Source of the DNA: a virus
IMG/VR virus record: IMGVR_UViG_3300042453_005121
Location: 86,763 to 150,762 of that record
Reading direction: 5' to 3' (one strand)
DNA: 64,000 nt
The position numbers and the translations under genes are program-made. Shown here piece after piece: positions 9,343-63,519 of this stretch. Within the stretch, counting starts at the first letter, position 1. Each line of letters opens with the position of its first letter. The notes under the pieces are model-generated. The model ran no database searches. It had not been told where the DNA came from and saw only the letters and a list, made by a program, of their open reading frames with translations.

Positions 9343-9418
9343 GATGAAAACCCGCCTGATTTTGTTTGATGACTATAATATAGTTGAAAAAAGAGCCGTT
9401 TTTTGCTATGATGAAAGT

Positions 9419-11866: not shown

Positions 11867-12132
11867 TTGTCTCCTATATCTTTTATCAGTTCGGAAATCT
11901 TTATTCCGTCGCTTATTTTTTTGACTATTGATCCGTAACTTCCCATGCCGTCATTGGTTTTTTTCACCACGCCGAGGTTCTTCAGATTCTTGATTATATC
12001 CGGTCCGAAATCCTTTGTGTTTTTGCCGAGTAGGTAGTTTCTCTCATCAGACGTAAGTTCACCTCCGGAGTTCAGTACTCCTAGGATGGCGTCGGAAACC
12101 TCTTTTCTTTCCATCCATGTCAAAAAACGCAT
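11863..12132 (-). CDS. Small protein with capsid-targeting-like N terminus
   Basis: The 89-residue product begins MRFLTWMERKE, a weaker match to the F-x-x-W-[LM]-x-E N terminus of its neighbours. The rest is charged and helical with no recognised family; residues 25-60 (SDERNYLLGK...IIKNLKNLG) could form a small winged-helix-like fold, which is a guess. A GGAGG stands nine bases upstream of the ATG. It converges on uvsW (3-base overlap). Its first ~50 bases overlap upstream codons of the divergent gene only if that gene used an earlier start. Confidence 0.6.
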   Translation of the reverse strand: MRFLTWMERKEVSDAILGVLNSGGELTSDERNYLLGKNTKDFGPDIIKNLKNLGVVKKTNDGMGSYGSIVKKISDGIKISELIKDIGDN

Positions 12133-46112: not shown

Positions 46113-46925
46113 ATGGAATTTAGGAACTGGTTGTTGGGAGAGGGCGTGCGCGAACTGGTCAAGGCCTATTCGGATTCGTTGAGGAACGTCCCCCAGAATT
46201 TTGATCATCATCCCGAGGGATCGGTGCTCAACCACGTCAAGTTGGTGAGGAAGTCGGTACTCTCGGCGGCCAAAGAACTCCAGAATCTCAAGGATGATTC
46301 TGTTCTGGGCGATGTCCTTCACGATCTTGATTTCAATCTTGATGAGGAGGAAGTCAAGATTTTAAATCTTGCCGCTTGGCTTCATGACATAGGCAAGTCC
46401 ACCGCTACGACCGTGGACGGAACACACTACAGTAAGGCCCAAGGTTTGGACGGCAAAGTTCAGGCGATAGGCCACGAGTCTCCCGAGCATTATGCTCCTC
46501 AAGTAGACAAGATGATTTCTTTGGCTCCTGATTCGCTCGTCAATTTCTATGAAACCCATAGGAATTTGGTCAATTTCCTTATTGAGCGACATATGGATTT
46601 TGCCCATGGAGGATTCGGCAAAAAAATTCTTTCTTCATATTTTGTAAATGGCAGAATCAAGAACGATCGCAACATGAAATTGTTATTGGTTTTGATGTGG
46701 GCGGACAAGATGGGGAGGGGCAAGGCTCCGGAACTCGCTGGAAATATCAATAAATTAAGAACAGCCGCAGAAAAAAGTCGCGAGATGGCTGCCAAAGCCG
46801 AAAGACAGTCAAGGCCGTTTTCCGGCGGCGAGACAGAGTTCAGGAACATGCTCCGCTCAAGAGGCTTGGATCAGGCCGCAATTGACGCCGCCGTGAGTTC
46901 AAAGTTCACACCGGTTCAAGATTGA
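46113..46925 (+). CDS. HD-domain phosphohydrolase with capsid-targeting-like N terminus
   Basis: The 270-residue protein starts MEFRNWLLGEG, a good capsid-targeting match with an L-G-E cut site. The body is an HD superfamily domain: His41 (LNHVKLV), His91-Asp92 (AAWLHDIGK), His121 (IGHES) and Asp in WADKMGR. HD enzymes hydrolyse nucleotides or cyclic dinucleotides. An in-frame ATG at 46098 overlaps the previous stop; I prefer 46113 because its product starts exactly at the shared peptide. A packaged HD enzyme could act on host nucleotide signals; that is inference. Confidence 0.75.
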   Translation: MEFRNWLLGEGVRELVKAYSDSLRNVPQNFDHHPEGSVLNHVKLVRKSVLSAAKELQNLKDDSVLGDVLHDLDFNLDEEEVKILNLAAWLHDIGKSTATTVDGTHYSKAQGLDGKVQAIGHESPEHYAPQVDKMISLAPDSLVNFYETHRNLVNFLIERHMDFAHGGFGKKILSSYFVNGRIKNDRNMKLLLVLMWADKMGRGKAPELAGNINKLRTAAEKSREMAAKAERQSRPFSGGETEFRNMLRSRGLDQAAIDAAVSSKFTPVQD

Positions 46926-46960
46926 CATTGAAAATGGGTTTTTGTAGACTCTCTGAAGTC

Positions 46961-48001
46961 ATGAAAACCGATCTTTATGTTTTTCAATGGATATCTGATC
47001 TCGGGGGAGCCGACACCCGACTCAAAGAACTTCTCATACTTCTCAAGGACGACTTCAATATAACCTGCATTCCGAACGACGAGTTCAGGCTTTCGGAGAA
47101 GCACAATACTGATTTCCTTGATTCGCTTGGCGTGAAGTACTGCATGCCAAAAGTTCTTCCCAAGAATCCCAAGGGTTTTGCTTACGCGAATTGCAACTTC
47201 AGGCTCTTTCAAGAGCGAGAAAGAATAAATTTCATAAATGACAAGGGCCTGAAATTCTTGTGGTCCAACGACATGATGTGGACCACTCCTGAAGAGATAG
47301 AGGCCATAAAAAAAGGAAAGGTTGATTGCTGTCTTTTTACATCAACCTTTCATCAAGGAATTTTGGGCGAAAAGATATTCGCCGCCAAGAAGGATCAGAA
47401 GGCCGCCATACTTGACAATTATTTTGATGCCTCCACGTGGGAGTACGCAGAAAGACCCGACAGGGAAACGATGGTGTGCGGGAAAGTCAGTCGGGATGAT
47501 CAAATGAAATTTTCCGAAGACTTTCCCATGTTTTATCAAAGAGCCACCGCTGGCCTGCCCGTTTCCTACAGAATCATGGGTTGGAACAAGGAACTTTCCG
47601 AAAAGTACGACTGGTTCAAGTTTGGCGAGAATTGGGAATTCCTCTCCACGAACAAGGAGCCCACGAGGAGTTTTTATTCTTCGTTGGATGTTTTTCTCTA
47701 TAACTGCAACCACAGGTTCATAGAAAACCAGAGCCGTGCTATTGTAGAGGCCCAACTGACAGGCCTTCCTGTGGTCGCCCCCAACAAATGGAATTTTCCG
47801 AATATGATTTGGGACCAGAGAACTGGATTTTTATGGAACAACCTCTTGGAAATGAAGGAGGCCCTGTCTGACCTTGTTCACCCGGACTTCAGGAAGAAAA
47901 TGGGGCGGATGGCAAGCGAATGCGCCAGACAGATATGGTGCGATTCTGAAGTCGCCAAGAGAAAGTGGAATTCGCTTTTGAATTATGTGGAGGGAAACTG
48001 A
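46961..48001 (+). CDS. GT-B type glycosyltransferase
   Basis: The protein of about 346 residues has a C-terminal SRAIVEAQLTGLPVVAPN motif, the E-x(7)-like donor loop of GT1/GT4 enzymes. It also has a DLGGADTRLKELL N-terminal segment like the Gly loop of the acceptor domain. Upstream TTG/ATG starts at 46922 and 46934 would add 9-13 residues; MKTDLYVFQW is the natural first strand. It ends in a one-base-overlap TGATG with the next glycosyltransferase. Substrates unknown. Confidence 0.78.
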   Translation: MKTDLYVFQWISDLGGADTRLKELLILLKDDFNITCIPNDEFRLSEKHNTDFLDSLGVKYCMPKVLPKNPKGFAYANCNFRLFQERERINFINDKGLKFLWSNDMMWTTPEEIEAIKKGKVDCCLFTSTFHQGILGEKIFAAKKDQKAAILDNYFDASTWEYAERPDRETMVCGKVSRDDQMKFSEDFPMFYQRATAGLPVSYRIMGWNKELSEKYDWFKFGENWEFLSTNKEPTRSFYSSLDVFLYNCNHRFIENQSRAIVEAQLTGLPVVAPNKWNFPNMIWDQRTGFLWNNLLEMKEALSDLVHPDFRKKMGRMASECARQIWCDSEVAKRKWNSLLNYVEGN

Positions 48002-48867
48002 TGAAGACACTAATCTGGTCGGTTGCTTGGGGCGAATACAGGTATATGCTTCAGACTCTGATGGATTCAATCCGTTCGTGCGGTTTGCAGCACGACATAC
48101 TTACGTTCTCGGACGAGCCCCTGGCGAACGTGACTTCCTGCGAGGTTGACAAATCCATACAAATGGACTTCAAGCAGTATTGGAAGTTCCATTATCTGAA
48201 TAAAATCCGCGAATTGGACTATGATCTTTTTGTTTTCATAGACAGCGATCATTATTTTGTTAGAAAACCACCAAAGGAATTTCATGAAATAATAGGACCG
48301 GACCCTTGGCATTCGTTCCTTGAGTCGCCCATCAATTCCGAACTCACCAAGAGGCCCGATTGGTGGGGCGTCACCAACTCCAGTATGACCAAGATTTACA
48401 GGGACTTCGGCGTGACGCAAGACACGGTCTACAGCACGAACGGAGGGTTCTGGATGTGTCGCAAGGAATTCATGAAACAGGCGGCGAATGTCGGCTTCTT
48501 GTTCAGGGACTACCAAAAGGGCCTCGGGCTTGACCTGCCTGAGGAAGTTGCCATAGCCGTGATTTCCCACATGTTCAGTGCGGATTACTCCCAAAGATTT
48601 CACAAGAGATATATGGACATATGGGCCAGCGAGTGGACGGGAGTACTGCAGGACCGTCTTCCCGACGGATCACAATGGGAGTTTCAGGAATATATGACGG
48701 GAACAAAATCTCTTTTGAATCCGGCGATAGTACACGCGATGAGAAGCAAGAATGCTCTCGTCGGAGCGGGGAAGAGTACTTTTGAAAAGACCAAGTCAAC
48801 TAGGAAGTTCATTTCGTGGGATAAAGTAAGGTCCGGAGCCCGCTGGAGTGTCTTTGATGAAGGCTGA
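48001..48867 (+). CDS. GT-A type glycosyltransferase
   Basis: The 288-residue protein begins MKTLIWSVAWGEYRYM. It has a single DxD motif in VFIDSDHYF near residue 79 and a STNGGFWM acceptor segment, in the style of GT8 and phage sugar transferases. The ATG overlaps the previous stop (TGATG), so the pair is co-translated. A 12-codon longer frame is inside the upstream gene and is not used. It overlaps thyX by 11 bases. Confidence 0.75.
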   Translation: MKTLIWSVAWGEYRYMLQTLMDSIRSCGLQHDILTFSDEPLANVTSCEVDKSIQMDFKQYWKFHYLNKIRELDYDLFVFIDSDHYFVRKPPKEFHEIIGPDPWHSFLESPINSELTKRPDWWGVTNSSMTKIYRDFGVTQDTVYSTNGGFWMCRKEFMKQAANVGFLFRDYQKGLGLDLPEEVAIAVISHMFSADYSQRFHKRYMDIWASEWTGVLQDRLPDGSQWEFQEYMTGTKSLLNPAIVHAMRSKNALVGAGKSTFEKTKSTRKFISWDKVRSGARWSVFDEG

Positions 48868-49501
48868 AATTCTAGGTCATTTTGGCGACGACCTTATGGT
48901 GGTCAACGCAGCCAGAGTTAGTTACGGAAAGAACAAGGAGAATTTTGATGAGAAGGACGCAAAACTCATCAGGTTTCTCGTGGAGCACGGACACACCTCG
49001 CCTTTCCGTCATCCGCAATTGCAGTTCAGGATTGAGTGTCCCATATTTGTGGAGCGACAACTCTTCAAGCATCAGGTGGGCCTCACCGCAAACAGCATAA
49101 GCGGAAGATACGTTGATTTCTCGGACGAGTACTGGTTGCCCGACCAACTCAGGCTGCAGTCAAAGGACAGCAAGCAGGGAAGCAGTGGCGACCTTGATTC
49201 GGTCGCCAATGAAAATTTTAAGGACCAGATGCAGATGCTACTCAAGCACGCCAAGTCCTTGTACGACCAGATGGAGGCTGCAGGCGTCGCCAAGGAGCAG
49301 TGCAGGATCATATTGCCGCTTTGTCTTGAGACTCAATTTGTTTGGACTGGTTCCTTGGCGGCCTTTATTCATTTGTGGAAACTTAGGTTGAAGCCCGACA
49401 CCCAACAGGAAACTAGAGAATTGGCTCTAATGATGTTGGGCGCAGTTAAGTCGCTGCCGGGCTGCCCTTTCCTGCGTACGCTGGAGGCGTTCGGTCTTTG
49501 A
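48857..49501 (+). CDS. thyX: Flavin-dependent thymidylate synthase
   Basis: The 214-residue FAD enzyme makes dTMP from dUMP using methylene-tetrahydrofolate and NADPH. The diagnostic motif is present in variant form: RQLFKHQVGLTANSISGRY, where canonical ThyX has RHR-x7-S; here KHQ-x8-S. LVEHGHTSPFRH and EQCRIILPL, the FAD and dUMP regions, are intact. The ATG at 48857 gives the usual N terminus; a GTG at 48848 is an alternative. The gene replaces the ThyA-type synthase of T4. Confidence 0.93.
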   Translation: MKAEILGHFGDDLMVVNAARVSYGKNKENFDEKDAKLIRFLVEHGHTSPFRHPQLQFRIECPIFVERQLFKHQVGLTANSISGRYVDFSDEYWLPDQLRLQSKDSKQGSSGDLDSVANENFKDQMQMLLKHAKSLYDQMEAAGVAKEQCRIILPLCLETQFVWTGSLAAFIHLWKLRLKPDTQQETRELALMMLGAVKSLPGCPFLRTLEAFGL

Positions 49502-50856
49502 ACGAACTTTTGCAGCGGCTGTACGACCACAAGCCCAGAGTCGCCGTTTACGGCGATGCGATGATTGATGAGTATTACGAGGTGGATTCCGACAAGTTGA
49601 GTCCGGAATTTCCCATCCCGGTATTGCGGTCCTGTTTTTCCCAACCGCATGCCGTCGCTCTTGGAGGGGCCGCAAACGTTTGTGCACAATTTAGAAACTT
49701 TAATTTTGACGTAAGTTTGTTTGCTCTGACGAACGATAGGATCAAACGGATGGGTTCGGGCGTCAATATGGACGGATGTATCTTTTCAAGGTCGGTGCCG
49801 GTCAAAAGGAGATACTACAGCGGTGATTTCCCGCTCTGTCGCATTGACTCCGAGGTGCGTGATTACAACTACGAACAAGAGGTCTTGAAAGACCTGCAGC
49901 AAAAGATACTAGACAATCTTAGTTCCTCTGGCCCCTACGACGTGGTTGTTTTTTCAAACTATGAAAAAGGAATGTTTTCCGGGCTTGATAATTTTGCGTC
50001 TTTCGCGGGAGACGCGATAACGATCGTTGATCCCAAGTCCGGTCCCCCCGAGCGATGGAGGGGTTGCACGATAATCAAACCCAATGCCAAGGAGGCCAAG
50101 GAGATAACCGGGCTTTCTGACTGGAAGGACCAATGCGCCCTTCTCATGAAGGCCACGGGATGTCAGGCTGTGGTTATCACGCGTGGCGGCGAAGACGTCG
50201 TGGGGAACGTGCAAGGTTTGTGGTTTGAATACAAGCCCGAGAGTCCCGTCCGAGCCAACTCCGTCGTGGGCGCGGGCGATTGTTTCGTTGCCTTTCTCGC
50301 CATGTGCATGTGCCATTCAATAGACATCAGAAGGTCGGTGGAGATAGCGTTTGAGGCCTGTTCTCTTTATGTCCGCGAATCCCACAATAGGCCGATTTAC
50401 CCTTATCAGATTGAGCCCACAAAATTCGTGGATTCTAGGAATCTGATTAATCGCGATTTTAAACTGGCATTCACTAATGGCTTTTTTGATATTTTGCATC
50501 CCGGTCACGTGGAACTTCTCAAACACGCCAAATCAAAGGCCGATTCGCTCGTTGTCGCCCTGAACACGGACGACAGTGCCATCAGGCAAAATAAATCCCA
50601 CAGACTGGTGAATGGTTTGGACTATCGCAAGTCCATGATTGCGGCCTTGGAGTGCGTTGACTTCGTTTTAGACTTCGGCGAGGACACCCCCTACGAATTG
50701 ATTAAAAGAGTCAGGCCGGATGTCCTTGTCAAAGGCTCCGACTGGCCCAATCCTGTGGGATCGGACCTTGTGGGCGAGGTGTGTTCTTTCGGTTTGGTGG
50801 GAAATCATTCCACTACGGGTATAATTGAAAAAATATGGTCAATTGCCCCTAGATAA
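49498..50856 (+). CDS. hldE: HldE-like bifunctional heptose kinase/adenylyltransferase
   Basis: The 452-residue protein matches HldE. Residues 1-~305 are a PfkB-type kinase with YGDAMIDEYY at the N terminus and NSVVGAGDCF as the anion-hole Asp motif. Residues ~325-452 are a nucleotidyltransferase with TNGFFDILHPGH (HxGH) and LVKGSDW. It makes ADP-heptose precursors for lipopolysaccharide core in Gram-negative bacteria. The start is TTG overlapping the thyX stop (TTGA), with GGAGG 10 bases upstream. No heptose isomerase or epimerase is in the window. Confidence 0.88.
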   Translation: MNELLQRLYDHKPRVAVYGDAMIDEYYEVDSDKLSPEFPIPVLRSCFSQPHAVALGGAANVCAQFRNFNFDVSLFALTNDRIKRMGSGVNMDGCIFSRSVPVKRRYYSGDFPLCRIDSEVRDYNYEQEVLKDLQQKILDNLSSSGPYDVVVFSNYEKGMFSGLDNFASFAGDAITIVDPKSGPPERWRGCTIIKPNAKEAKEITGLSDWKDQCALLMKATGCQAVVITRGGEDVVGNVQGLWFEYKPESPVRANSVVGAGDCFVAFLAMCMCHSIDIRRSVEIAFEACSLYVRESHNRPIYPYQIEPTKFVDSRNLINRDFKLAFTNGFFDILHPGHVELLKHAKSKADSLVVALNTDDSAIRQNKSHRLVNGLDYRKSMIAALECVDFVLDFGEDTPYELIKRVRPDVLVKGSDWPNPVGSDLVGEVCSFGLVGNHSTTGIIEKIWSIAPR

Positions 50857-51793: not shown

Positions 51794-52047
51794 TGAGACG
51801 ATTTTATTTCGATGAAGAGGGTCGTGGTGATGACGAGGAGGATGCGGAGGACATGGAGGGCATGGGTTTCATGCCTGAAGAATTTATAACCATGACCCCT
51901 ATGTCCAATCCGGAGCATCATCTGCTGGATTGCGCCATTAAATTCTGCGAGAAGTCAATACTTTGGAGATTCATGGGAAACTCCTCCCGTCTCAAAATGC
52001 TGGAAGACGTATATGTTAGAATCAGAAACATGATGGAAGGTGCTTGA
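51790..52047 (+). CDS. Small acidic protein, unknown
   Basis: The 85-residue protein is very acidic at first (DEEGRGDDEEDAEDMEG) and helical later (DCAIKFCEKSILWRFMGN). Starts at either of two adjacent ATGs after GGAGG. Its acidic start might mimic DNA or bind basic proteins; this is a guess. It precedes an FmdB-type zinc-ribbon gene by one base. Confidence 0.55.
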   Translation: MMRRFYFDEEGRGDDEEDAEDMEGMGFMPEEFITMTPMSNPEHHLLDCAIKFCEKSILWRFMGNSSRLKMLEDVYVRIRNMMEGA

Positions 52048-52048
52048 T

Positions 52049-52399
52049 ATGCCAAGATATGAAATGAAATGTGAAAAGTGCGAAGAAGTTTACGACGTTT
52101 GGTCAAACATGTCCGAAAAGACTGAAAACGTCGCCAATGCCGAATGTCCGTCCTGCGGCTCTCGAGAAAAAACGGAGATAATGGGTTGTCCTTCCGTAAA
52201 ATTCGCCAACCCAGTCGGAACAGACAGATGGAACAGCGAGAGCAAGGGACACGACTACAGGTTCAAACACAATATGGATAAGCCCGGAGGAACAAGGGAT
52301 CAGCGTGCCGCTGCGGCGAAGGCGTCCAGAGTCGGGGCCGAACCGTACAGGAAGATAGACGACATATCAAGCGGCAAGCACTTCGGCGATGTCAAGTGA
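52049..52399 (+). CDS. FmdB-like zinc-ribbon protein
   Basis: The 116-residue protein begins MPRYEMKCEKCEEVYDV, the FmdB regulatory-domain opening, with two Cys pairs (CEKC and CPSCG) forming a zinc ribbon. The rest is charged and probably disordered. Such proteins are common in phages and bacteria; the molecular role is not known. It ends seven bases before the prkA promoter. Confidence 0.8.
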   Translation: MPRYEMKCEKCEEVYDVWSNMSEKTENVANAECPSCGSREKTEIMGCPSVKFANPVGTDRWNSESKGHDYRFKHNMDKPGGTRDQRAAAAKASRVGAEPYRKIDDISSGKHFGDVK

Positions 52400-52405
52400 T
52401 CGGGA

Positions 52406-52433
52406 TTGATTAATTATTTATACACACTAGAAT
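52406..52433 (+). promoter_or_regulatory. Sigma70-like promoter TTGATT-16-TAGAAT for prkA operon
   Basis: TTGATT (52406-52411) and TAGAAT (52428-52433), 16 bases apart, stand 31 bases before the prkA ATG, in the only gap before a three-gene operon. A TTATAC at 52418-52423 is an alternative -10. Confidence 0.45.
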
Positions 52434-52464
52434 AAATTGTTCTGAAAACTGAAAGGAACAATAA

Positions 52465-54543
52465 ATGAGCGACAAGCTCCAGAAACTCTCCTCAAGGTTT
52501 GATAAAGAAAAATTCAAGAAGTTGAACGAGGAGATGTCGTTCTCCGAGTATGTTGATCTTCTGTATGAACGCCCGCGTCTCGCAAGGACGGCCTACCAGT
52601 ATCTGTACGACATGATACTGAGCAAGGGCACCAGCAAGGTTGACAGGTACAGGAAGACCTACATCAAGTACAAGTTTTTTGAGGAGTCCGACACGCCGAT
52701 ATTCGGATTGGACGAGACTCTCCATCAACTGGTTCAGTTCTTCAAGGGAGCAGCCGGAGGATACGGACCGGACCGCAGAGTTTTGCTCCTGCACGGACCT
52801 GTGGGGAGTTCCAAGTCAACGATACTGCGTTGCATCAAGAAGGGCTTGGAGAAGTACTCCCTCACCGAGGAAGGCGCTTGGTACACGTTCAAGTGGGTCA
52901 ATCTGCCAACCGGCAAGGATGACGGAATCTACACGCAGGCCGAGGACGAGTCGCCCATGCATGAGGACCCTCTTAAGTTGCTGCCGAGCGACATGAGGAA
53001 GGAGGTCATCGCGGACCTCAACAAGATTCTGGAGGAAGGCACTCCCGACAAGGAAAGGACTTCGTTGTACAGGATAACCATGGAAGGTGATCTGGATCCC
53101 CGTTCAAAGAAGTTCATGCAGGAATTGCTCCTCAGAAACGATGGTGATTGGGGCAAGGTCGTGGAAAATCACATTCGCGTTGTTCGCAAGACCCACAGTG
53201 AGTCTGACCGATGTGGCATTGCGACATTCCAGCCCAAGGATGAGAAGAACCAAGACAGCACCGAACTCACCGGCGATATCAACTGGGGAAAACTGCCCCA
53301 TTTTGGTACGGACTCCGATCCAAGGGCCTTTAACTTTGACGGCGAGTTCTGCATAGGCAACAGGGGACTGGTTGAATTCATAGAGATGCTGAAGCTCGCC
53401 AAGGAGTTCCTCTACGACCTTCTCGGTGCGTCTCAGGAGAAGCAGATCAAGCCCAAAAAGTTTCCTCAGGTCGCCGTGGATACAGTCCTCATTGGGCATA
53501 CGAATTCACCTGAATTCCTCAGGCTCAAGGGCGACCAGACCATGGAAGCTCTCAGGGACAGGACTGTGAAGATAGACGTGCCGTATCTCCTGAGGTGGAG
53601 CGAGGAACTCAAGGTCCTAGAGCATCAGTACAACAATGAAAGGATAAAGCAACATATCGCCCCGCACACCCTGGAGATCGCCGCCCTCTGGTCGGTTCTC
53701 ACGAGGCTGCAGGACGACAAGGACGGAAAAATGACCCTCGTGGAGAAGGCCAAGCTCTACGACGGCAGAAGCCTTCCCGGCTGGACGGAGGACAGCGTCA
53801 AGGAACTAAGGGACAAGTATCCCGATGAGGGGATGATAGGCATCAGCTGCCGCTACACCCAAGACAAGATAAGCAATTGTCTCAGTTCGCACTATGACTA
53901 CATAAATTTCTTCATGGTACTCAATGAACTCAAGGCCGGGATAGACCACCAGTCGCTTCTCAACAATGAGGAGGACAAGGCGAAGTACGTGGCGTGCATA
54001 GACCTTGCCAAGAAGGAGCTTGATGAAATCCTCAAGACCGAGGTTCAGAAGGCTCTTGTCGGTGACGAGCATGCCATAGAGAGGCTATGCGGCAATTACA
54101 TAGACAATGTAATGGCCTACATCAACGGGACCAAGATCAGAAACCCATTCACCGAGCAGGATCAGGAGCCCGACGAGAGACTCATGCGCTCCATAGAGGA
54201 AAAGATAGACATTCCCGAGGTCGGAGCAGACGACTTCAGGAGGATGCTCGCGGGATTCATCGGACATCTGGCTCACGGCGGCAAGCAGTTCAAGTGGGAC
54301 TCAAATCCCCAGTTGAAGAAGGCCCTTGAGGCGAAGTTGTTCGAGGACACCAAGGATCACATCAAGTTGTCGGCCCTTAATATCAAGGGAGCCACCGTCG
54401 TGGACAAGGAGGTTCAGGAGAAGATTGATGCGGTGAAGCAGAGGCTCATAAAGAATTACGGATACAACGAGCAGAGCGCCACTGACGTGCTTGATTACTG
54501 CGGTTCTATATTCGCCCGAGGGGATGTGGCTGAAGAGGACTGA
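52465..54543 (+). CDS. prkA: PrkA/YeaG-like AAA+ serine protein kinase
   Basis: The 692-residue protein has the PrkA layout: an AAA+ domain with P-loop GPVGSSKST at 111-119, IYTQAEDESPMHEDP, VLIGHTNSPEFLRLKGD and the R-rich EALRDRTVKIDVPY segment; then the C-terminal PrkA domain. PrkA phosphorylates proteins in the starvation response (E. coli YeaG with YeaH). It heads an operon with yeaH and spoVR; E. coli PrkA is about 644 residues, so this one is full length. AAGGAAC precedes the ATG. Confidence 0.93.
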   Translation: MSDKLQKLSSRFDKEKFKKLNEEMSFSEYVDLLYERPRLARTAYQYLYDMILSKGTSKVDRYRKTYIKYKFFEESDTPIFGLDETLHQLVQFFKGAAGGYGPDRRVLLLHGPVGSSKSTILRCIKKGLEKYSLTEEGAWYTFKWVNLPTGKDDGIYTQAEDESPMHEDPLKLLPSDMRKEVIADLNKILEEGTPDKERTSLYRITMEGDLDPRSKKFMQELLLRNDGDWGKVVENHIRVVRKTHSESDRCGIATFQPKDEKNQDSTELTGDINWGKLPHFGTDSDPRAFNFDGEFCIGNRGLVEFIEMLKLAKEFLYDLLGASQEKQIKPKKFPQVAVDTVLIGHTNSPEFLRLKGDQTMEALRDRTVKIDVPYLLRWSEELKVLEHQYNNERIKQHIAPHTLEIAALWSVLTRLQDDKDGKMTLVEKAKLYDGRSLPGWTEDSVKELRDKYPDEGMIGISCRYTQDKISNCLSSHYDYINFFMVLNELKAGIDHQSLLNNEEDKAKYVACIDLAKKELDEILKTEVQKALVGDEHAIERLCGNYIDNVMAYINGTKIRNPFTEQDQEPDERLMRSIEEKIDIPEVGADDFRRMLAGFIGHLAHGGKQFKWDSNPQLKKALEAKLFEDTKDHIKLSALNIKGATVVDKEVQEKIDAVKQRLIKNYGYNEQSATDVLDYCGSIFARGDVAEED

Positions 54544-54551
54544 GGTGAATC

Positions 54552-55748
54552 ATGCCAAGACGGATCGATCAAGACCACAAGGACTTCCAGGACGTCTATG
54601 GCGGCATAAGGCGCAGGGAACTCAGGAAGTACATCAAGAACGGAAGCATCTTCAGGAACAGGGGCAAGAACGGCAAGGTAGTCGTGACGATCCCCAAGAT
54701 AGACATCCCCCACATAGTCTACGGGGAGAACGACGAGGGGATCGGCAGGGGAAAGGGCGACAAGGGTGATGTAATAGGCCGAGATCCTCAAAAGGGGAAT
54801 GGAAAAGGCAATAAGGCAGGTCAGGACGAGGGCGACGGCATAGAAATCGCCGTGGACATGGAGGACGTCCTCAAGTTCATGCAGGAGGAGTTGGAACTCC
54901 CTGAGATGAAGCCGAAGCCGGGCGACACCTACGAGCAGGTCATAAAGAAATACAACAACATATCGCTCGTGGGTCCCGAGAGCCTTCGTCACAACGCGAG
55001 GACGCTCAAGCAGGCCCTCAAGAGACAGTGCGCAGACGGATCAATAAACAAACTTCATCAGATACCCGGCTTCGCGAACCCGGTCAGACTCATCACCCCC
55101 ATAAACAGCGACAAGAGGTATCGTCAGTTCAACGAGATAAAGATACCCTCGAGCAACGCCGTCATATTCTTCGCCCGAGACGGCTCCGCCAGCATGGATC
55201 AGTACAAGTGCGACGTGGTCAGTGACATGAGTTGGTGGATAGATGCATGGATCAGGAAGTTCTACGACAAGGTGGAAAGGGTCTACGTCTGGCACGACAC
55301 CGTGGCCAAGGAGGTGGACGAGAAGAAGTTTTACAAGTACAGGTATGGGGGCGGCACAACCTGTTCCACGGCCCTCAAACTCATATCAAAGATGTTTGAG
55401 AACAGGTATGATCCTGTCAAATGGAACATATATCTCTTCTACTTCACCGACGGCGAGAACTGGGACGATGACAATTCTGTCTTCGCCAGAACCCTCAAGG
55501 AGGAATTCTCCGCCAAGACAGTAAACATGGTTGGGATAACGCAAATACTCTCGTGGAATTATGAAAACAGCCTGAAGCAGTACGTTGACCAGAACTGCAA
55601 GGCCCCAAACATACGGACCGCCCAGGTCGGAACCATGCCAAATCCTATGACGGATGAGGAGAGGGACAAGCAAATCAAGAACGCGATCATGGACTTGCTC
55701 GGCAAGGGAAGATCAAGGGAAAACAACTACTGGCAGGTGATGGGATGA
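54552..55748 (+). CDS. yeaH: YeaH-like (DUF444) von Willebrand A-fold protein
   Basis: The 398-residue protein begins MPRRIDQDHKDFQDVYGGIRR as in YeaH. Basic and Gly-rich N-terminal half; C-terminal von Willebrand A-like domain with FFARDGSASM (MIDAS D-x-S-x-S near 211) and YFTDGENWDDD. In E. coli it is co-transcribed with yeaG and works with YcgB/SpoVR. The start follows the prkA stop by eight bases; the end overlaps spoVR by ATGA. Confidence 0.92.
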   Translation: MPRRIDQDHKDFQDVYGGIRRRELRKYIKNGSIFRNRGKNGKVVVTIPKIDIPHIVYGENDEGIGRGKGDKGDVIGRDPQKGNGKGNKAGQDEGDGIEIAVDMEDVLKFMQEELELPEMKPKPGDTYEQVIKKYNNISLVGPESLRHNARTLKQALKRQCADGSINKLHQIPGFANPVRLITPINSDKRYRQFNEIKIPSSNAVIFFARDGSASMDQYKCDVVSDMSWWIDAWIRKFYDKVERVYVWHDTVAKEVDEKKFYKYRYGGGTTCSTALKLISKMFENRYDPVKWNIYLFYFTDGENWDDDNSVFARTLKEEFSAKTVNMVGITQILSWNYENSLKQYVDQNCKAPNIRTAQVGTMPNPMTDEERDKQIKNAIMDLLGKGRSRENNYWQVMG

Positions 55749-58570
55749 ACCAGAACAAATTCATGCTCGGATCGCCCGTACTCATGGGCAACAATACTAT
55801 CCCCGGCGTTCCGATGCCAGAGGAGTTGAAGAGGCTTCTGCCCGAGATATTCAGGAGGGTGAGCGAATTCGGCTGCGACTTTCCACCCACCGTAGTTGAG
55901 ATGCTCACCTACGACGAGATCAGCGAAATCGCTGCGTATGGAGGATTCCCGGTTAGGTATCCGCACTGGAAATGGGGGATGGAGTACGAAGAACTTCAGC
56001 GCGGATATATGCACGGCATGCATAGGATATACGAGATGGTGGTCAACACAGACCCCTGTTACCTCTATTGCCTAGATTCAAACACGCTCCTTGACAACGT
56101 GACGGTGGTGGCCCACGCCCTAGGCCACGCCGATTTCTTCAAGAACAATATTTACTTCGCTAAGACGAGCCAGAACATGATGAACGAACTGGCCAACCAC
56201 GGCACGAGGATAAGGAAGTACATGAGCCGTTGGGGCAAGGAAAGGGTCACGGAGTTCATAGACTATGTGCTCCGCATAGAGACCCTGATAGATCCCTCCA
56301 AGGCTTGGCAACCCAAGCGGTACAAGGACAACATTCACCGGGACAGTAGGAAGTACCGCCATCCCAACCGTCTCAAGGTTGAGGATGGCCACGATTACAT
56401 GGAGGAGTACGTCAACACTGACGAGTGGATCAAGAAGCAGCACGAGCAGATAGAAAAGATAGAGGCGGCCGAGTACCTTGATATGTTCGTTGGTTCCACC
56501 AAGGACATAATGGGCTTCATAAGGGACAACGCTCCGCTCAAGCCATGGGAGAGCGACATCGTCTCCATGCTCTACGAGGAAAGCATGTATTTCGCGCCGC
56601 AGAGGATGACTAAGACAATTAATGAGGGCCATGCATGTGTAGGTCCCGAAACGCTTATAGCCACTGATGGCGGGCTTTTGACGGCACGAGAGTTGGTGGA
56701 GAATAAAATATCGTGCAATGTATCAGACGGCGAAACCAATAGAAAAGTCAGCAACTGGTTTATTTTTAAGGACAGGGATACCGTAGAAATAGAAACCAAA
56801 AGAGGCTACAGGATATTGGGTTCCGACAACCATAGAATTATGGATTCCAATGGCCAGTGGGTTTATCTTAAAGACATCAGAAAAAAACACGAAGTAAAGA
56901 TCGGCGTTTCTGATGTGTGGCCCCCAAAGATGGTCAGAATAAACTACAAAGAAGAAGAAAGGCTTACTACCTCCAAGATAAAGAAAATTCTTGGTTCAAG
57001 ATATTGGAAGTACAACTACTACCGAATGGGAATGCAGACCGACGAGCAGGCGGGATCAAAAGTTGTTGAGTTGAGCAAGTTGTTTGATGAGCAGTTCTCA
57101 AGAATGGGACAAACCCAACTGATTAGAAGAAAAAAAATTTCAATACCTTCATCGGTCACAGAAAGCCTCGCAAGTTTTCTTGGTTACATGATAGGAGACG
57201 GACACATTTCAGAATTGGGCAGGTCTCTAGGACTCACATCGGGAGACCTTGATCAAATTCAGGAATATGAACGCCTATTGAATTCTCTATTTGGATTGAC
57301 TAGCAAGAGAAAATGGGACGGCAGTTCAAAAAATGGAAGGTGGAGAATTTCGTGCTCTTCAAAAAGTCTTCAGGAATTCTTGAAAAGCCTTGGTTTTTTG
57401 ACCGGAAGGTGCGCAAGACAGAAGACAATACCCGAGTGCATTTTAAGGTCTCCAAAAAATGTGATGTCGGCATTCTTGCGTTCTTATTTTGACTGTGATG
57501 GCTATGCCGGCAAGGCAGGCGTCATATTGTCAACCTCTAGCGAAAAGATGGGAGAACAAGTTCAGACTATTCTTTTAAATTACGGCATATTGTGTAGCAG
57601 AAAGAGAGCGAAGTCTTGCGACAAGACCAAGATTCATATATGGCATGTTAGAATGGGCAGTTCGCAAGCCAAAAAATTCATGGAGCAAATTGGTTTCGGA
57701 TTGAAGAGAAAGCAAGACTCACTTTCAAAATATGTCAACGAAAGAAGATGGTTCGTAAAGGAAAAATGGTCCGACGAGGTTGTCTCAATCCGAAAAGGCA
57801 AGGAGACCGTATATGACATGACCGTGGACGAAACTCATCGCTATTCTGCCCACGGATTTATCAACCACAACAGCTGGGTTGACTACCACATAATAGCAAA
57901 ACAGGGGCTGAGCGGACTCGGACAGGAGCATGACAGTGCGGGCATCATAGAGTACGCCAAGCACAAGATGGGTGTTCTCGGGGGCAAGTACAGCATGAAC
58001 CCATACAAGCTCGGATTTAATCTTCTTTGCGACATAGAGGAACGTTGGGACAAGGGCAGGTTCGGTCGCGAGTGGGAGGAGTGCTCGGATGCGAGCAAGA
58101 AGCAGGATTGGGATTTGAAGCTCGGGCTCGGCAGAGAAAAGGTCTTCGAGGTCAGGAAACTATACAACGACCTAACGCTGATTATGGAATTTTTTACCCC
58201 CGAGTTCTGCGAGAAGTACGAGTTCTTCGAGTGGAAGAAGTATCCAAATGGGGAATATAAGATAGAGAGCAAGGACCCGCACAAGATCAAGGCCAAGCTT
58301 GTCTCTAGGCACATGAACGGTGGTCTTCCCGAGATCAGGCTCATGGATCCGAATCACAGGGGCAAGGGCATAATGCTGCTCCAGCACAAGTGGACCGGAC
58401 GCCCACTTCACGAGTCCTATGTGGGTCCAGTCCTTGAATCGTTGCGTCGTTTGTGGAAGAACGACGTTCATCTCGTCACTGGGGACAGGTCGGGTCGTGA
58501 GACGGTCTACAGGTGCCGTGGGGATTCCTGCGAGGTGGATATGGTCCCGAGGGAGGAATACGGCTCCTGA
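55745..58570 (+). CDS. spoVR: SpoVR/YcgB-like protein interrupted by an intein
   Basis: Without the intein the protein has 529 residues, close to E. coli YcgB (510). It contains HWKWGMEYEEL near 74, TVVAHALGHADFF with the conserved His cluster near 120-132, and the TINEG-H-A...-W motif around the intein. The final part shows LRRLWKNDVHL. SpoVR proteins act in spore cortex formation in Bacillus and in stress in enterobacteria with unknown chemistry. Third gene of the prkA-yeaH-spoVR operon; a strong terminator follows. Confidence 0.92.
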   Translation: MNQNKFMLGSPVLMGNNTIPGVPMPEELKRLLPEIFRRVSEFGCDFPPTVVEMLTYDEISEIAAYGGFPVRYPHWKWGMEYEELQRGYMHGMHRIYEMVVNTDPCYLYCLDSNTLLDNVTVVAHALGHADFFKNNIYFAKTSQNMMNELANHGTRIRKYMSRWGKERVTEFIDYVLRIETLIDPSKAWQPKRYKDNIHRDSRKYRHPNRLKVEDGHDYMEEYVNTDEWIKKQHEQIEKIEAAEYLDMFVGSTKDIMGFIRDNAPLKPWESDIVSMLYEESMYFAPQRMTKTINEGHACVGPETLIATDGGLLTARELVENKISCNVSDGETNRKVSNWFIFKDRDTVEIETKRGYRILGSDNHRIMDSNGQWVYLKDIRKKHEVKIGVSDVWPPKMVRINYKEEERLTTSKIKKILGSRYWKYNYYRMGMQTDEQAGSKVVELSKLFDEQFSRMGQTQLIRRKKISIPSSVTESLASFLGYMIGDGHISELGRSLGLTSGDLDQIQEYERLLNSLFGLTSKRKWDGSSKNGRWRISCSSKSLQEFLKSLGFLTGRCARQKTIPECILRSPKNVMSAFLRSYFDCDGYAGKAGVILSTSSEKMGEQVQTILLNYGILCSRKRAKSCDKTKIHIWHVRMGSSQAKKFMEQIGFGLKRKQDSLSKYVNERRWFVKEKWSDEVVSIRKGKETVYDMTVDETHRYSAHGFINHNSWVDYHIIAKQGLSGLGQEHDSAGIIEYAKHKMGVLGGKYSMNPYKLGFNLLCDIEERWDKGRFGREWEECSDASKKQDWDLKLGLGREKVFEVRKLYNDLTLIMEFFTPEFCEKYEFFEWKKYPNGEYKIESKDPHKIKAKLVSRHMNGGLPEIRLMDPNHRGKGIMLLQHKWTGRPLHESYVGPVLESLRRLWKNDVHLVTGDRSGRETVYRCRGDSCEVDMVPREEYGS
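56636..57871 (+). mobile_element. Class 1 intein with LAGLIDADG endonuclease, in SpoVR
   Basis: A 412-residue in-frame insertion sits between A297 and Ser of the conserved TINEGxA-x-W region. It starts with Cys (CVGPETLIATDGG) and ends FINHN, followed by Ser+1, so standard class 1 splicing residues are complete. Block B SDNHRIM is present, and both LAGLIDADG helices (LGYMIGDGHIS; SYFDCDGYAGK) look intact. It is unlike the UvsW intein in mechanism class and sequence. Confidence 0.92.
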
Positions 58571-58582
58571 AATTGCGAAAAA

Positions 58583-58603
58583 CCCTTATTTTAAGGGCTT
58601 TTT
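58583..58603 (+). terminator. Rho-independent terminator after spoVR
   Basis: CCCTTA (58583-58588) pairs with TAAGGG (58592-58597) over a TTT loop, followed by C and five T residues. Confidence 0.65.
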
Positions 58604-58673
58604 GGGTTGGTTTTTTGCCTGTCGGCGGGGCTAAATATGGTGTCATTTCCACTAGACTAATACGTGGTGCACC

Positions 58674-59360
58674 ATGAATTCAATCACGAAGAGAAGTGTA
58701 TCAGTAGAACAGCTGATAAGCGAGATACACAACCACCACATCAACAATCTTAATCGTGAGATATACCTCCACGGGTACGTGGACGCCGAGGAGGAACCGG
58801 GCGTGGAGTACAGGATGGCCACGTCCTTCGTGAAGAACCTGCACATATTGGAGTGCCAGAACAGTCAGAACATACTTGTTCACATGCATACGATCGGCGG
58901 AAACTGGAGCGACGGCATGGCCATATTCAACGCCATAAGGTTGTCTAAGGCTCCTATGACGATACTCGGATACGCCCAGGCGAGCAGCATGAGTGGCATA
59001 GTGTTTCAGGCAGCCGACAAGAGGGTTCTGATGCCGGACTGCGAGATGATGATTCACCACGGTTCCATATCTCTTGAGGACAACACCATGGCCGCCAAGA
59101 GTGCGATAGACCAGAACGAGAGGAACTGCAAGAGGATGCTTGAGGTTTTCGCTGAGCGGGCCGTCCATGGCAAGTATTTCAAGGACAGGAAGTTCAGTTT
59201 GAGGAAGGTCAACAACTTTATAGACCAGAAGATAAAGCAGGTCGGCGACTGGTATCTCATGCCGGACGAGGCTGTGTACTATGGCTTGGCAGACGGGATT
59301 CTCGGCGAGAAGGGTTTTGAGAACATGTCAAAAATCAGGGGTGGAAGGAAGAGTAAATGA
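58674..59360 (+). CDS. ClpP-family protease
   Basis: The 228-residue protein has the ClpP fold motifs: HMHTIGGNWSDGMAI, the nucleophile Ser105 in AQASSMSG, His128 in MMIHHGS, and Asp in GDWYLMPDEAVYYGLAD. It has a longer N terminus and an MVSxx-free opening compared with E. coli ClpP. Phage ClpP-like proteases may process head proteins or redirect host proteolysis. The downstream end is basic (RGGRKSK). Confidence 0.85.
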   Translation: MNSITKRSVSVEQLISEIHNHHINNLNREIYLHGYVDAEEEPGVEYRMATSFVKNLHILECQNSQNILVHMHTIGGNWSDGMAIFNAIRLSKAPMTILGYAQASSMSGIVFQAADKRVLMPDCEMMIHHGSISLEDNTMAAKSAIDQNERNCKRMLEVFAERAVHGKYFKDRKFSLRKVNNFIDQKIKQVGDWYLMPDEAVYYGLADGILGEKGFENMSKIRGGRKSK

Positions 59361-59652: not shown

Positions 59653-61221
59653 ATGAGGGCGATTGATCTTTATTCCGGCGTTGGAGGATGGTCTCTCGGT
59701 CTTTCCATGGCCGGAGTCTCTGTGGAATCATCCTATGAATGGTGGGGTAAGGCCAATCTCACAAATGAGAGGAACAACGGCCACAAGATCGTGATGGCCG
59801 ACGTGAGGGGACTTCCTTTGTCTGGATTTCCTCAGGCGGACATTGTCGTCGGCAGCCCGCCCTGCACTCAGTTTTCTCTCGCCAACAGGGGAGGCAAGGG
59901 AAACATACTAGAAGGCCTCAAGGACGTGGAGAAGTTTCTGGAGGTCGTGGAAGCCGTCGGGCCTAGGTTTTGGGCCATGGAGAACATTCCCCGCCTCGCC
60001 GCCATCATGAGAAGCGAACTCAATCAGGGCGGCGTCCTGCACAGGTTCTGCGGTTTGAATCCGACCATACTTGTCTTGGATGCCAGTGAGTGGGGCGTAC
60101 CCCAACGAAGGCAGCGGTGCATAATAGGGAATTTTAATTCCGATCTGCTCCTAGCCTACAGGGATAAATCAATTTCTAGGACCTTAGGATGCGTTCTAAG
60201 GGCCCTTTCTTCGCCGTTGGCCCACGACCCCGTTTACGGCACAGAAATCCCTCAGGAAGCCCTTGTTGACCACGAGAAAGAGTTGTCTCTCTCTTGGGAG
60301 GAGGAAAGGATCAACAGGGAGACCAAGACCCACCATCCCGTCTACAACAATATGTCTTTTCCCGACCGTCTGGACAGGCCTTCTAGGACCGTCACGGCCA
60401 CCTGCACGAGGGTGTCAAGGGAGAGCATAGTCGTTCCTGAGGGGGACGGCTTCAGGCGTCTTAGCCTACGCGAACGTGCGTGCCTTCAGTCTTTTCCTGT
60501 GGCCTATCAGTTCTACGGCGACACTCACCCGCAGAAGCAGAAGATGATAGGCAACGCCATTCCGCCGCTTCTTTCCTATCACATAGCCCACGCCATGCTC
60601 GGGACCCTGACGGACGATCTTCCTTCTCCGTCCGAGTCAATCAAAAATTTTGTTCCGCCTTCCGCTCCCAAGGCCACCCGTCCCGACAAGCCCGGCTATT
60701 CATTCGCCATCGATAGAAAATTCAGGGCGGCTATACCGGGGTTGAGGTTCAAGAGCGGTGTCCGTTTTGAACTTTCCAATTCTTTTCCCGGTCCCGAATG
60801 GTCCATCAAATTCTTTTATGGAAATTCCAAGAATATAAAAGAAATCATTCTGGGCTCTGGTCTATTGGGGGAGATCAAGAGCGTGGAAGGAACGGGAGTG
60901 TGTGTTTCCAAGGCCACCAACGCCCTTTTTGAAATTGGTGGAATTATGGATTCTTTGGACCCGGTTGGACTCCAAGGAGCATGGAGCCACACCCGTGAAT
61001 ACAAGCATCCTTATGAATTGGTGGACTCCTTGGGTCGTGCGGTGGAACTTTTCATGAGCGAGGACGAGGGAATCGCCGAATCGGTCGTTTCCGGAATCAT
61101 GGCATCAAGGAACAATCCTCAGGGATGCAAGAAGGTAATAAGGCACGCCAAGGCCGTTTTCTCTGGGCTTTTGATTGGTTCAATTTTCAACGATACTATA
61201 AGTCAATTACCCACCCCCTAA
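59653..61221 (+). CDS. DNA (cytosine-5) methyltransferase with C-terminal extension
   Basis: The 522-residue protein has C5-methyltransferase motifs: DLYSGVGGWSLGL (I), the catalytic GSPPCTQFS (Cys71), AMENIP (VI), ASEWGVPQRRQR (VIII) and GNAIPPLLSYHI (X). The target-recognition region between is variable. About 180 residues past motif X form an extra domain without a recognised match. It would methylate cytosines in phage DNA, perhaps to evade host restriction. No partner restriction enzyme is in the window. Confidence 0.88.
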   Translation: MRAIDLYSGVGGWSLGLSMAGVSVESSYEWWGKANLTNERNNGHKIVMADVRGLPLSGFPQADIVVGSPPCTQFSLANRGGKGNILEGLKDVEKFLEVVEAVGPRFWAMENIPRLAAIMRSELNQGGVLHRFCGLNPTILVLDASEWGVPQRRQRCIIGNFNSDLLLAYRDKSISRTLGCVLRALSSPLAHDPVYGTEIPQEALVDHEKELSLSWEEERINRETKTHHPVYNNMSFPDRLDRPSRTVTATCTRVSRESIVVPEGDGFRRLSLRERACLQSFPVAYQFYGDTHPQKQKMIGNAIPPLLSYHIAHAMLGTLTDDLPSPSESIKNFVPPSAPKATRPDKPGYSFAIDRKFRAAIPGLRFKSGVRFELSNSFPGPEWSIKFFYGNSKNIKEIILGSGLLGEIKSVEGTGVCVSKATNALFEIGGIMDSLDPVGLQGAWSHTREYKHPYELVDSLGRAVELFMSEDEGIAESVVSGIMASRNNPQGCKKVIRHAKAVFSGLLIGSIFNDTISQLPTP

Positions 61222-61249: not shown

Positions 61250-62803
61250 ATGAAGACAATAAGCGGAAATCACACATCAATTCTTCAACTTGACGACTTT
61301 TCTTCCGTCGTCGCGTTCATGCTTCTGGAGCATTTGGATGAGGAGGCGAGGTCCGGCGAGTTGTTCGTCGTCGGACGCCACTCGAGGCGTAATCCCGAAT
61401 CAATAAGACAGTTGTTTCCGGACAAGAAGATCATTGCCTACCAATCAAAACAGATGATGGGGCTGGGCGACTGGAGAAATGTGAAGTTGACCATTGAAAA
61501 TCTTCGTGGTTACGACGAAGTTTGGGACTGCGATCCGATCAATGCTCATTTCCTAGCCCAACGGGGCATTGTGGTTCACAATGTATTTCCTTTTGTTCAC
61601 GCGTCTTGTCTTGAGAAGATAGAATCAAAAGATCATCCGAGCATAGATGTCCTTTTCTATGGAGAAATGACCGACAGAAGAAGCGAGGCTATAGCAAGAC
61701 TCCAGAAAAATTGCCCTAATCTTCGTATGGTTTGGGTCCGGGGCGATCCGGACTTGGACAGGTACATATCGGATTCCAAGGTCGTTCTGAACATACACGC
61801 TTTTGAGCCTTGGAACAGGCAGGAGCAGGCGAGAATTTTTTATCCTTTGATAAACGGGAAGACCGTCGTTTCGGAACCCAGTCAACACGAGCACTTTTCC
61901 GATCTGATCATCCGGTCTGATTTGGAGAGCATGCCTTCGGTCTTGAATTCCGTGTGTTCTTCTGACCTTTGGAGATCGTTCGGAAAATTGGCTTCGGTCA
62001 ATTTCAAGAAAAAGAACGTGCGGGAGGCTCCGGCCGCGTCTCCTTTGAAGACTCCATGCAGTCCCGATTTGGGAGACAGAAATGTATTTATTTATTGGGT
62101 TGGATATGAATATAAACTCATATCAATCTTGAGGAATCTAATTTATCTTCATTCAAATAACGGCGTAGGTTATAAAGTACACTTTATAAACGACAAAAAT
62201 GTATCAAACTACACATCAACACCGCACTATTTTCACAAATTGAATCCGGCTCATCAGGCTGATTTTGTAAGGGTAAATGTGATTTGCGATTATGGTGGAA
62301 TATGGCTTGATAGCGACGCCGTGGTGATGTCTTCTATTGATCCCCTATTTGATATGATTGATGAAAAAAATGGATTTTTTGTCGTTGAAAATAATTTGAA
62401 CTTATGTAACGGCATATTCGGCAGTAAGAAAAATACCGAATGCATGAAGAGATGGCGATCGGAAATGATAAAAATTACAGATCGCAAGATGCAAAATCTC
62501 AATTGGACAGAAATAGACAACCAATTATTGGATAGGATGTATTATACCGAACCCAAGTTGTATGACGACTACAATATAATGAAAGGATTGGACTCAATAT
62601 ATCCAGTTAATTGGGACAAGTGTGTTGATGAATTCATAAGATCACCATATTCAAATTACACAAAAATATTACGCGACTTCCAGCCTGTCATAATGCTGGT
62701 AAATAGTGTTTACAAGGAATTAGAGTCATTTGAAATCAATGATATATATGAAAAAACTCCTTTGGGTTACTTTTTGAAAAAGTCATACAAGAGCATTACA
62801 TGA
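61250..62803 (+). CDS. Two-domain glycosyltransferase (N-terminal GT-B-like, C-terminal GT32-like)
   Basis: The 517-residue protein ends in a GT32/OCH1-like domain (about 285-517): QADFVRVNVICDYGGIWLDSD with its DxD motif, and GFFVVENNL. The N-terminal ~260 residues look like a GT-B half: DVLFYGEM, RMVWVRGDPD, and RIFYPLINGKTVVSEPSQ. A Lys/Pro-rich linker near 270 joins them. Base composition drops toward AT in the second half, so the two parts may have separate origins. The stop overlaps the next ATG. Confidence 0.78.
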   Translation: MKTISGNHTSILQLDDFSSVVAFMLLEHLDEEARSGELFVVGRHSRRNPESIRQLFPDKKIIAYQSKQMMGLGDWRNVKLTIENLRGYDEVWDCDPINAHFLAQRGIVVHNVFPFVHASCLEKIESKDHPSIDVLFYGEMTDRRSEAIARLQKNCPNLRMVWVRGDPDLDRYISDSKVVLNIHAFEPWNRQEQARIFYPLINGKTVVSEPSQHEHFSDLIIRSDLESMPSVLNSVCSSDLWRSFGKLASVNFKKKNVREAPAASPLKTPCSPDLGDRNVFIYWVGYEYKLISILRNLIYLHSNNGVGYKVHFINDKNVSNYTSTPHYFHKLNPAHQADFVRVNVICDYGGIWLDSDAVVMSSIDPLFDMIDEKNGFFVVENNLNLCNGIFGSKKNTECMKRWRSEMIKITDRKMQNLNWTEIDNQLLDRMYYTEPKLYDDYNIMKGLDSIYPVNWDKCVDEFIRSPYSNYTKILRDFQPVIMLVNSVYKELESFEINDIYEKTPLGYFLKKSYKSIT

Positions 62804-63519
62804 AGATACATCTTTACGCTGTTGCTTGGAATGAAGAGTTCATGATGCCGTTTTTTATGAGGCATTATGCAAAATTTTGTGAAAAAATAATTATTTACGA
62901 CAACGAATCTACTGACGGGACTGCAGAAATAGTGGAAAAAATGGGCGGAGAAATACGAACGTGGTCTAGCAACAATAAACTTGATGATTCAATGTACTTG
63001 GAGATAAAAAACAATGCATATAAAAAATCCAGAGGGTCGGCGGATTGGGTGATTGTGTGCGACAGTGACGAATTTATATATCATCCAAATTTAGTGAATC
63101 TGCTTAGTGAGTACAAGTCTATGGGAATAAATTTCCCCAAGACGGAGGGCTATGAGATGATTCCGAATTGCTTCATAGAAAAGGATTGTGATTTGGTTGA
63201 TAATTACAAATATGGATCAAGATATGTCAATCTTGATAAACGTGCTATATTCAATCCCAATCTGGAAATCAAATATGGTCCCGGATGTCATTCTTCAAAC
63301 ACTCCTGAATTGGCCGTCCAAAGCGAGAATGCCGACATCAAGATTTTGCATTACAAATACCTGAACCCGAATTACTTAATACTCAGACACAAATTGTTGG
63401 GCTCAAGACTGAGCGATAGTAATATTCAGCATAATTGGGGCGTGCAATACACGTGGAACGAAGAAATAATGAAAAAAAGATACAATGAAATATTGTCCAT
63501 TAGGTCAAAAGTCATATGA
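62800..63519 (+). CDS. GT2/GT92-like glycosyltransferase
   Basis: This 239-residue protein begins YAVAWNEEFMMPFFMRHY, has IIIYDNESTDGT (first GT-A strand) and VCDSDEF as DxD near 88, and ends with basic residues. Such single-domain enzymes are common beside sugar-nucleotide genes. ATGA overlap with the previous glycosyltransferase. Sequence is AT-rich compared with the replication genes, suggesting recent acquisition. Sugar unknown. Confidence 0.8.
   Translation: MKIHLYAVAWNEEFMMPFFMRHYAKFCEKIIIYDNESTDGTAEIVEKMGGEIRTWSSNNKLDDSMYLEIKNNAYKKSRGSADWVIVCDSDEFIYHPNLVNLLSEYKSMGINFPKTEGYEMIPNCFIEKDCDLVDNYKYGSRYVNLDKRAIFNPNLEIKYGPGCHSSNTPELAVQSENADIKILHYKYLNPNYLILRHKLLGSRLSDSNIQHNWGVQYTWNEEIMKKRYNEILSIRSKVI

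Follow-up and report, generated by a model that had tools for sequence, protein, structure and literature searches.

A phage-borne prkA-yeaH-spoVR operon with an intein inserted in a conserved motif of SpoVR

What does a virus do with a complete copy of the bacterial prkA-yeaH-spoVR trio? We analyzed a 64,000-nucleotide stretch of viral DNA (G000:C1:86763-150762; hereafter the window), the terminal part of a linear virus record of 150,762 bases. ORF and family searches showed that the three genes form a single coupled operon on the + strand, with all three open reading frames complete, an 8-bp gap between prkA and yeaH and a 4-bp overlap (ATGA) between yeaH and spoVR. The complete and tightly coupled trio described in the initial annotation was thus borne out, as was its claim that the operon has its own promoter-like sequence and terminator: the promoter-like site begins exactly at 52406 and a credible hairpin lies at its other end. 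The operon and its immediate neighbors comprise:

52040..52399, + strand: FmdB-like zinc ribbon, 119 aa, two CxxC pairs (Pfam Zn_ribbon_8, E=1.9e-8)
52406..52433, + strand: promoter-like site TTGATT-16-TAGAAT (consensus match 9/12, weak alone)
52465..54543, + strand: prkA, AAA+ ATPase "serine protein kinase", 692 aa (Pfam PF08298 and PF06798)
54552..55748, + strand: yeaH (DUF444), VWA protein, 398 aa (Pfam PF04285, E=2.6e-61, 208 bits)
55745..58570, + strand: spoVR precursor, 941 aa, made up of 529 aa of SpoVR and an intein (Pfam PF04293, PF24755, PF14890 and PF14528)
58578..58605, + strand: intrinsic terminator-like hairpin (58578-58602; 11-nt arms, 91% complementary) and T-run
58674-59360: ClpP-like serine protease (matches head-maturation-protease PHROGs)

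Promoter-like sites are not rare in shuffled sequence (1 found against 6.7 expected), and TTGATT-16-TAGAAT is statistically weak; a TTGATT plus ACTAGA[A/T]T element nevertheless occupies the same place in the close relatives L006, L007 and L013. The phage-specific promoter motif ACTAGANT was not enriched within the window (8 against 4.6 expected), and a tRNA scan found no tRNA.

The Walker A and MIDAS motifs of the first two proteins are preserved. Window PrkA matched the AAA_PrkA domain (E=6e-76) and the PrkA C-terminal domain (E=1.5e-77) of Pfam with 256 and 261 bits against cut-offs of 25, its Walker A motif GPVGSSKST is intact at the invariant positions, and it has a relative in the PDB (9xip). 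In YeaH, the MIDAS motif DxSxS...T...D is intact, with D210, S212, S214, T269 and D300 invariant, and the predicted model has a VWA fold whose matches include the AAA+-partnered MIDAS of Rea1/MDN1 and NorQD. Loss of the PrkA or MIDAS motifs on alignment, which the initial annotation had named as an outcome that would speak against its reading, was therefore not what we found. E. coli YeaG K426 aligns to D467 of window PrkA, with an invariant Lys one residue further on. Fully purified B. anthracis PrkA had neither kinase nor protease activity, and PrkA has been classed in AAA+ clade III rather than MoxR (PMC13001217). Kinase activity, disputed in that work, is unsupported for the window PrkA and should not be assumed.

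SpoVR matched its profile with E=6.6e-94 (315 bits); its intein-free relatives are about 500-540 aa long, compared to 941 aa in the window. The description of the trio as full length holds insofar as all three ORFs are whole, while the length of SpoVR includes a 412-aa intein that the initial annotation overlooked, together with a His-to-Asp change in the same protein, the zinc-ribbon partner upstream and the precedents in phage records (the phiYS40 annotation). Without the intein, SpoVR is 529 aa and colinear with its intein-free relatives. The relevant features within spoVR are:

56636..57871, + strand: SpoVR intein, 412 aa (Pfam Intein_splicing and LAGLIDADG_3; empty site in L006)
57167..57394 (G000:143929-144156), + strand: LAGLIDADG motif region 1, homing endonuclease (Pfam)
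57461..57694 (G000:144223-144456), + strand: LAGLIDADG motif region 2, homing endonuclease (Pfam)
57881..57883, + strand: Asp codon, SpoVR extein residue 301, at the position of the bacterial invariant His (alignment)

The intein junctions read NEGHA|CVGPETLIA...GFINHN|SWVDYH, splitting the invariant SpoVR motif NEGxA|S. A first Cys, a final His-Asn and a +1 Ser are the splicing residues of class 1 inteins. All are present here, as Cys1 (C298), the penultimate His, the terminal N709 and the +1 nucleophile Ser710. The insert scored 41.9 bits with Intein_splicing (cut-off 35.8) and 77 bits with LAGLIDADG_3, both endonuclease motifs keep their acidic residues, and a phmmer search matched solved archaeal inteins. 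Because the intein breaks the most conserved SpoVR motif, mature SpoVR presumably requires splicing, and the residues retained suggest that the precursor would be spliced in vivo. We considered a pseudogene or insertion damage of spoVR and rejected it, as the frame is open, the splicing residues are intact and the gene is under purifying selection.

Two SpoVR motifs are invariant, HAxGHxDFFKNN and NEGxAS, and H124, H128, N293, E294 and G295 were 100% conserved in an alignment of phage and bacterial SpoVRs. In bacteria the second motif reads NEGWA[STV]xWH in 48/48 sequences. The last residue, however, is Asp in 76/76 phage SpoVRs of the window's clade, compared to His in all 48 bacterial SpoVRs; at the same position, Thermus phage phiYS40 has Asp, and MN1 and Lalka8 have His. 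This His is conserved in the sampled bacteria, but it is not a known defining residue of the family, and the profile membership of the Asp lineage variant therefore stands. With the change fixed, SpoVR activity could be altered or lost. An AlphaFold2 model of the intein-free SpoVR of L006 (pLDDT 87) places both motifs in helices. A fold search of the SpoVR model against the PDB gave no credible solved match (best E=0.15, TM 0.12), and weak peptidase matches were set aside; against viral models there was one match, to a 617-aa protein (E=1.4e-11). SpoVR is probably a metal-site enzyme; it has no solved structural relative, and metal binding is proposed from the conserved His, Glu and Asp.

A scan of viral contigs returned 134 PrkA relatives, and the best 80 of the 134 were fetched. 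The synteny that the initial annotation had proposed to look for in phages was present in 76 of these 80 IMG/VR loci, with prkA, yeaH and spoVR in the window's order and strand; the remaining four contigs end first. In quick trees of 57 phage and 47 bacterial trios, the bacteria having been picked by PrkA similarity, each of the three proteins formed a phage-only clade (SH-aLRT 99-100). Furthermore, phage distances were correlated between the trio genes (r 0.88, 0.89 and 0.78), with 0 of 1000 permutations as high. These trees argue against three unrelated acquisitions, the other outcome named beforehand as adverse. Across prkA, yeaH and spoVR, dN/dS was 0.006-0.10, several of the dS values being near saturation and those of L049/L050, L021/L025 and L007/L013 not. 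Judged from sequence, the trio genes share one history and are under purifying selection.

Of 57 non-redundant phage loci, 56 have a zinc-ribbon homolog upstream of prkA, in 44 cases no more than 250 bp away, compared to 0/47 bacterial loci; in the sole exception, L010, the contig begins within prkA. The zinc ribbon thus appears to be a fourth member of the phage module. Its C-terminal tail is often conserved (PY..IDDISSGKHFGEVK-like). Directly after spoVR, the ClpP-like gene is found in the window and in 24/57 related loci, and an HldE-like gene is near the trio in 49/57. Around the trio (59653-61221, 61250-63519 and 46922-50856) we also observed a cytosine methyltransferase, glycosyltransferases, ThyX and a bifunctional HldE/RfaE-like heptose enzyme.

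The initial annotation had mentioned PrkA/SpoVR-type genes in some large T4-like phages, and the G000 record fits a carrier of this type, with a T4-type core of gp23-like major capsid protein, gp46/47, gp41-like helicase, UvsX and gp32-like SSB. The trio and the capsid protein co-occur in G000, LR756511, G005 and G016 at a distance of ~130-230 kb, a spacing that makes it probable that the window's record is only part of a far larger genome. At least three phage groups, distant from one another, carry the trio. Both prkA and spoVR were missing from a 532-kb record whose capsid protein is related; the trio, sampled here in fragmentary records, may therefore not be universal in the lineage.

Comparison of phage and bacterial SpoVRs revealed inteins at three positions overall. 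Site 1 follows Asn101 (YEMVVN|C...HN|TNP) and site 2, occupied in the window, follows Ala297; the third, in the huge phage LR756504 (NEG|C...HN|CATF), holds 129 aa, in which an endonuclease would not fit. Among the 76 loci and the window, site 2 was occupied in 18, site 1 in 14 and both in 8, counts that are not de-duplicated and include L002, which comes from the virus of the window or from one identical to it. Bacterial SpoVRs also carried site-2 inteins, in six genes that are complete and two that are cut short; their carriers are Chloroflexota, Planctomycetota and Myxococcota. Huge-phage and bacterial SpoVR inteins were observed in L165 (LR756504; shifted site), L094, L097, L098, L100, L109, L120, L122 and L144, and in L025, L041, L047 and L061 two inteins per SpoVR give ORFs of 1374-1378 aa that are more than 60% intein.

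Intein presence varied between near-identical phages. L021, L023 and L025 have identical SpoVR exteins with no intein, a site-2 intein and both inteins, respectively, and the pair L049/L050 provides the contrast of with and without for site 1. In both sets the flanking DNA is ~95-98% identical (~95-97% for L021, L023 and L025), and the similarity is interrupted precisely where the intein starts and stops. The SpoVR of L006 is 86% identical to that of the window and its site is empty. In L007/L013 the intein dS was 0.074, compared to 0.70 for the surrounding SpoVR, a difference that recent movement of the intein would produce. The site-1 inteins formed one clade (100/100) in the intein tree, and the bacterial site-2 inteins clustered together at 91/77; phage and bacterial site-2 inteins adjoin, with no supported exchange between them. 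Within viral contigs, the window intein had close relatives in the SpoVRs of this virus and of five viruses near to it and nowhere else, so that no wider donor was identified. By these comparisons the SpoVR intein is a mobile homing element, and site 2 is a homing site common to phages and bacteria.

The bacterial trio (E. coli yeaG-yeaH and ycgB; B. subtilis prkA, yhbH and spoVR) is homologous in all three proteins, with the motifs kept, and its gene order is the same as in the phage in Myxococcota, Planctomycetota, Chloroflexota and Bdellovibrionota. These phyla, among others, also hold the closest cellular PrkAs, which are 52-56% identical. In contrast to the bacterial trio, the phage clade is separate, its SpoVR carries the His-to-Asp change and the zinc-ribbon gene is extra; the window SpoVR also contains an intein, and some bacterial SpoVRs contain one too. 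The Thermus phages phiYS40, TMA, phiLo, MN1 and Lalka carry YeaH, SpoVR and PrkA as well, and the phiYS40 record DQ997624 names SpoVR and a serine kinase. These belong to a distant phage group, with the order yeaH-spoVR then prkA, a PrkA only ~30% identical, no intein and no zinc-ribbon gene seen beside the trio. Closer to the window, the huge phage LR756511 (595 kb) and its relatives fall in the same clade, with a trio 55-67% identical and a capsid protein 78.6% identical, although the SpoVR of LR756511 lacks an intein and its record is without annotation. Known LAGLIDADG inteins of phage and bacterial proteins share with those of SpoVR the block residues, the endonuclease, insertion in a conserved motif and sporadic presence. 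The usual intein hosts are replication and nucleotide enzymes; here the host protein is SpoVR. Phages have been described as intein carriers (PMC5050341), Ralstonia phage RsoM2USA provides a further PrkA/SpoVR precedent (PMC8504454), and viruses of an oxygen minimum zone have been reported to carry spoVR (PMC8940887). Phage-borne PrkA/SpoVR is thus already known from phiYS40 and its relatives and from RsoM2USA. SpoVR and an intein appeared together in no searchable paper, and with subscription journals and intein databases outside the search, priority is uncertain. As far as could be checked, the new elements are SpoVR inteins at three positions, one of them common to phages and Chloroflexota, Planctomycetota and Myxococcota, intein-bearing and intein-free versions of near-identical phages, the fixed His-to-Asp change and a phage-only zinc-ribbon gene upstream of prkA.

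How might the module work? We give an even chance to a phage-adapted PrkA-YeaH-SpoVR stress module in which an AAA+/VWA pair acts on SpoVR, slows the host and depends on intein splicing. PrkA (AAA+ ATPase) would be paired with YeaH (VWA/MIDAS) as its adaptor, in the manner of NorQ-NorD or MoxR-VWA, and the two would remodel or activate SpoVR as their substrate or client; the SpoVR intein would be spliced out of the second motif before SpoVR could act. The module would, most likely, keep the infected host in a slowed, starvation-like yet productive state, and a lineage of large T4-type phages would be keeping its genes together. The strict linkage, the joint evolution, the retention of the MIDAS and the VWA fold match favor an AAA+/VWA machine with SpoVR as its target, and from them we infer the ATPase-adaptor-substrate relation. 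The MoxR/NorQ systems (NorQD, jumbo-phage MoxR-vWA) likewise combine an AAA+/VWA gene pair with a third protein; the published placement of PrkA in clade III, however, limits this analogy to gene pairing, and membership is not claimed. A slowed host as output would follow from the bacterial module, in which YeaG works together with YeaH as a "metabolic brake" when E. coli is starved of N (PMC10954441). Manipulation of host dormancy by the phage trio, as initially suggested, is plausible but unsupported. In a more elaborate version, which we consider doubtful, a neofunctionalized machine of four genes (zinc ribbon, AAA+, VWA and a SpoVR with the His-to-Asp site) would be gated post-translationally, its activity awaiting the removal of one or two inteins from catalytic motifs, and SpoVR would serve as an intein hub, with homing elements moving between phages and bacteria.

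The main and serious rival to a role in host physiology, itself in our view unlikely, is virion assembly, with PrkA-YeaH as an AAA+/VWA chaperone and SpoVR as an enzyme that processes structural proteins. For a jumbo-phage MoxR-VWA pair with a metallopeptidase domain, a role in virion assembly has been proposed, and an archaeal virus reportedly needs a MoxR-VWA pair to assemble its tail (PMC7824862). Furthermore, the trio of Thermus phage Lalka8 lies between portal/minor head genes and TerL, and the ClpP-like gene after spoVR, here and in the 24 loci, matches head-maturation proteases. The window trio, in contrast, is ~130 kb from the capsid genes of the same record and beside metabolic genes (ThyX, HldE/RfaE-like, glycosyltransferases), and the bacterial trio works in starvation and sporulation. 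The uniform Asp in phage SpoVRs, within a motif otherwise invariant, would also suit a dominant-negative or competing copy that counters host starvation or dormancy, an inactive SpoVR still occupying the host complex; yet the other conserved SpoVR residues are kept under strong purifying selection, and prkA and yeaH, which a decoy would not need, are fully retained, making this reading improbable. Host-derived genes are common in large phages, so that passive cargo, acquired by chance and hitchhiking with a SpoVR decayed by insertion, might be imagined; it is very hard to reconcile with synteny conserved across divergent phages, dN/dS of at most 0.10 and an intein whose splicing residues and reading frame are intact, and we regard it as highly improbable.

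For the favored stress module, the natural phage variants, comprising near-identical pairs with and without inteins and the fixed His-to-Asp change, make PrkA-YeaH-SpoVR function directly testable, and as a set they show a stress module selected as a unit within phage genomes. Repeated intein invasion at the most conserved motif of SpoVR marks an enzyme whose exact site matters, and the intein sites point to testable residues in the protein. The window holds a second intein (9824-10861, 346 aa) in a UvsW-like DNA helicase (9341-11866, + strand); it follows the Lys of Walker A without a gap (APTAAGK|AQPLDS...THN|TN), and its first residue is Ala in place of Cys. Elsewhere in the record, a homing-endonuclease-like ORF at 10754-11926 (- strand) of L172 (G000:1-20000) adjoins the major capsid gene.
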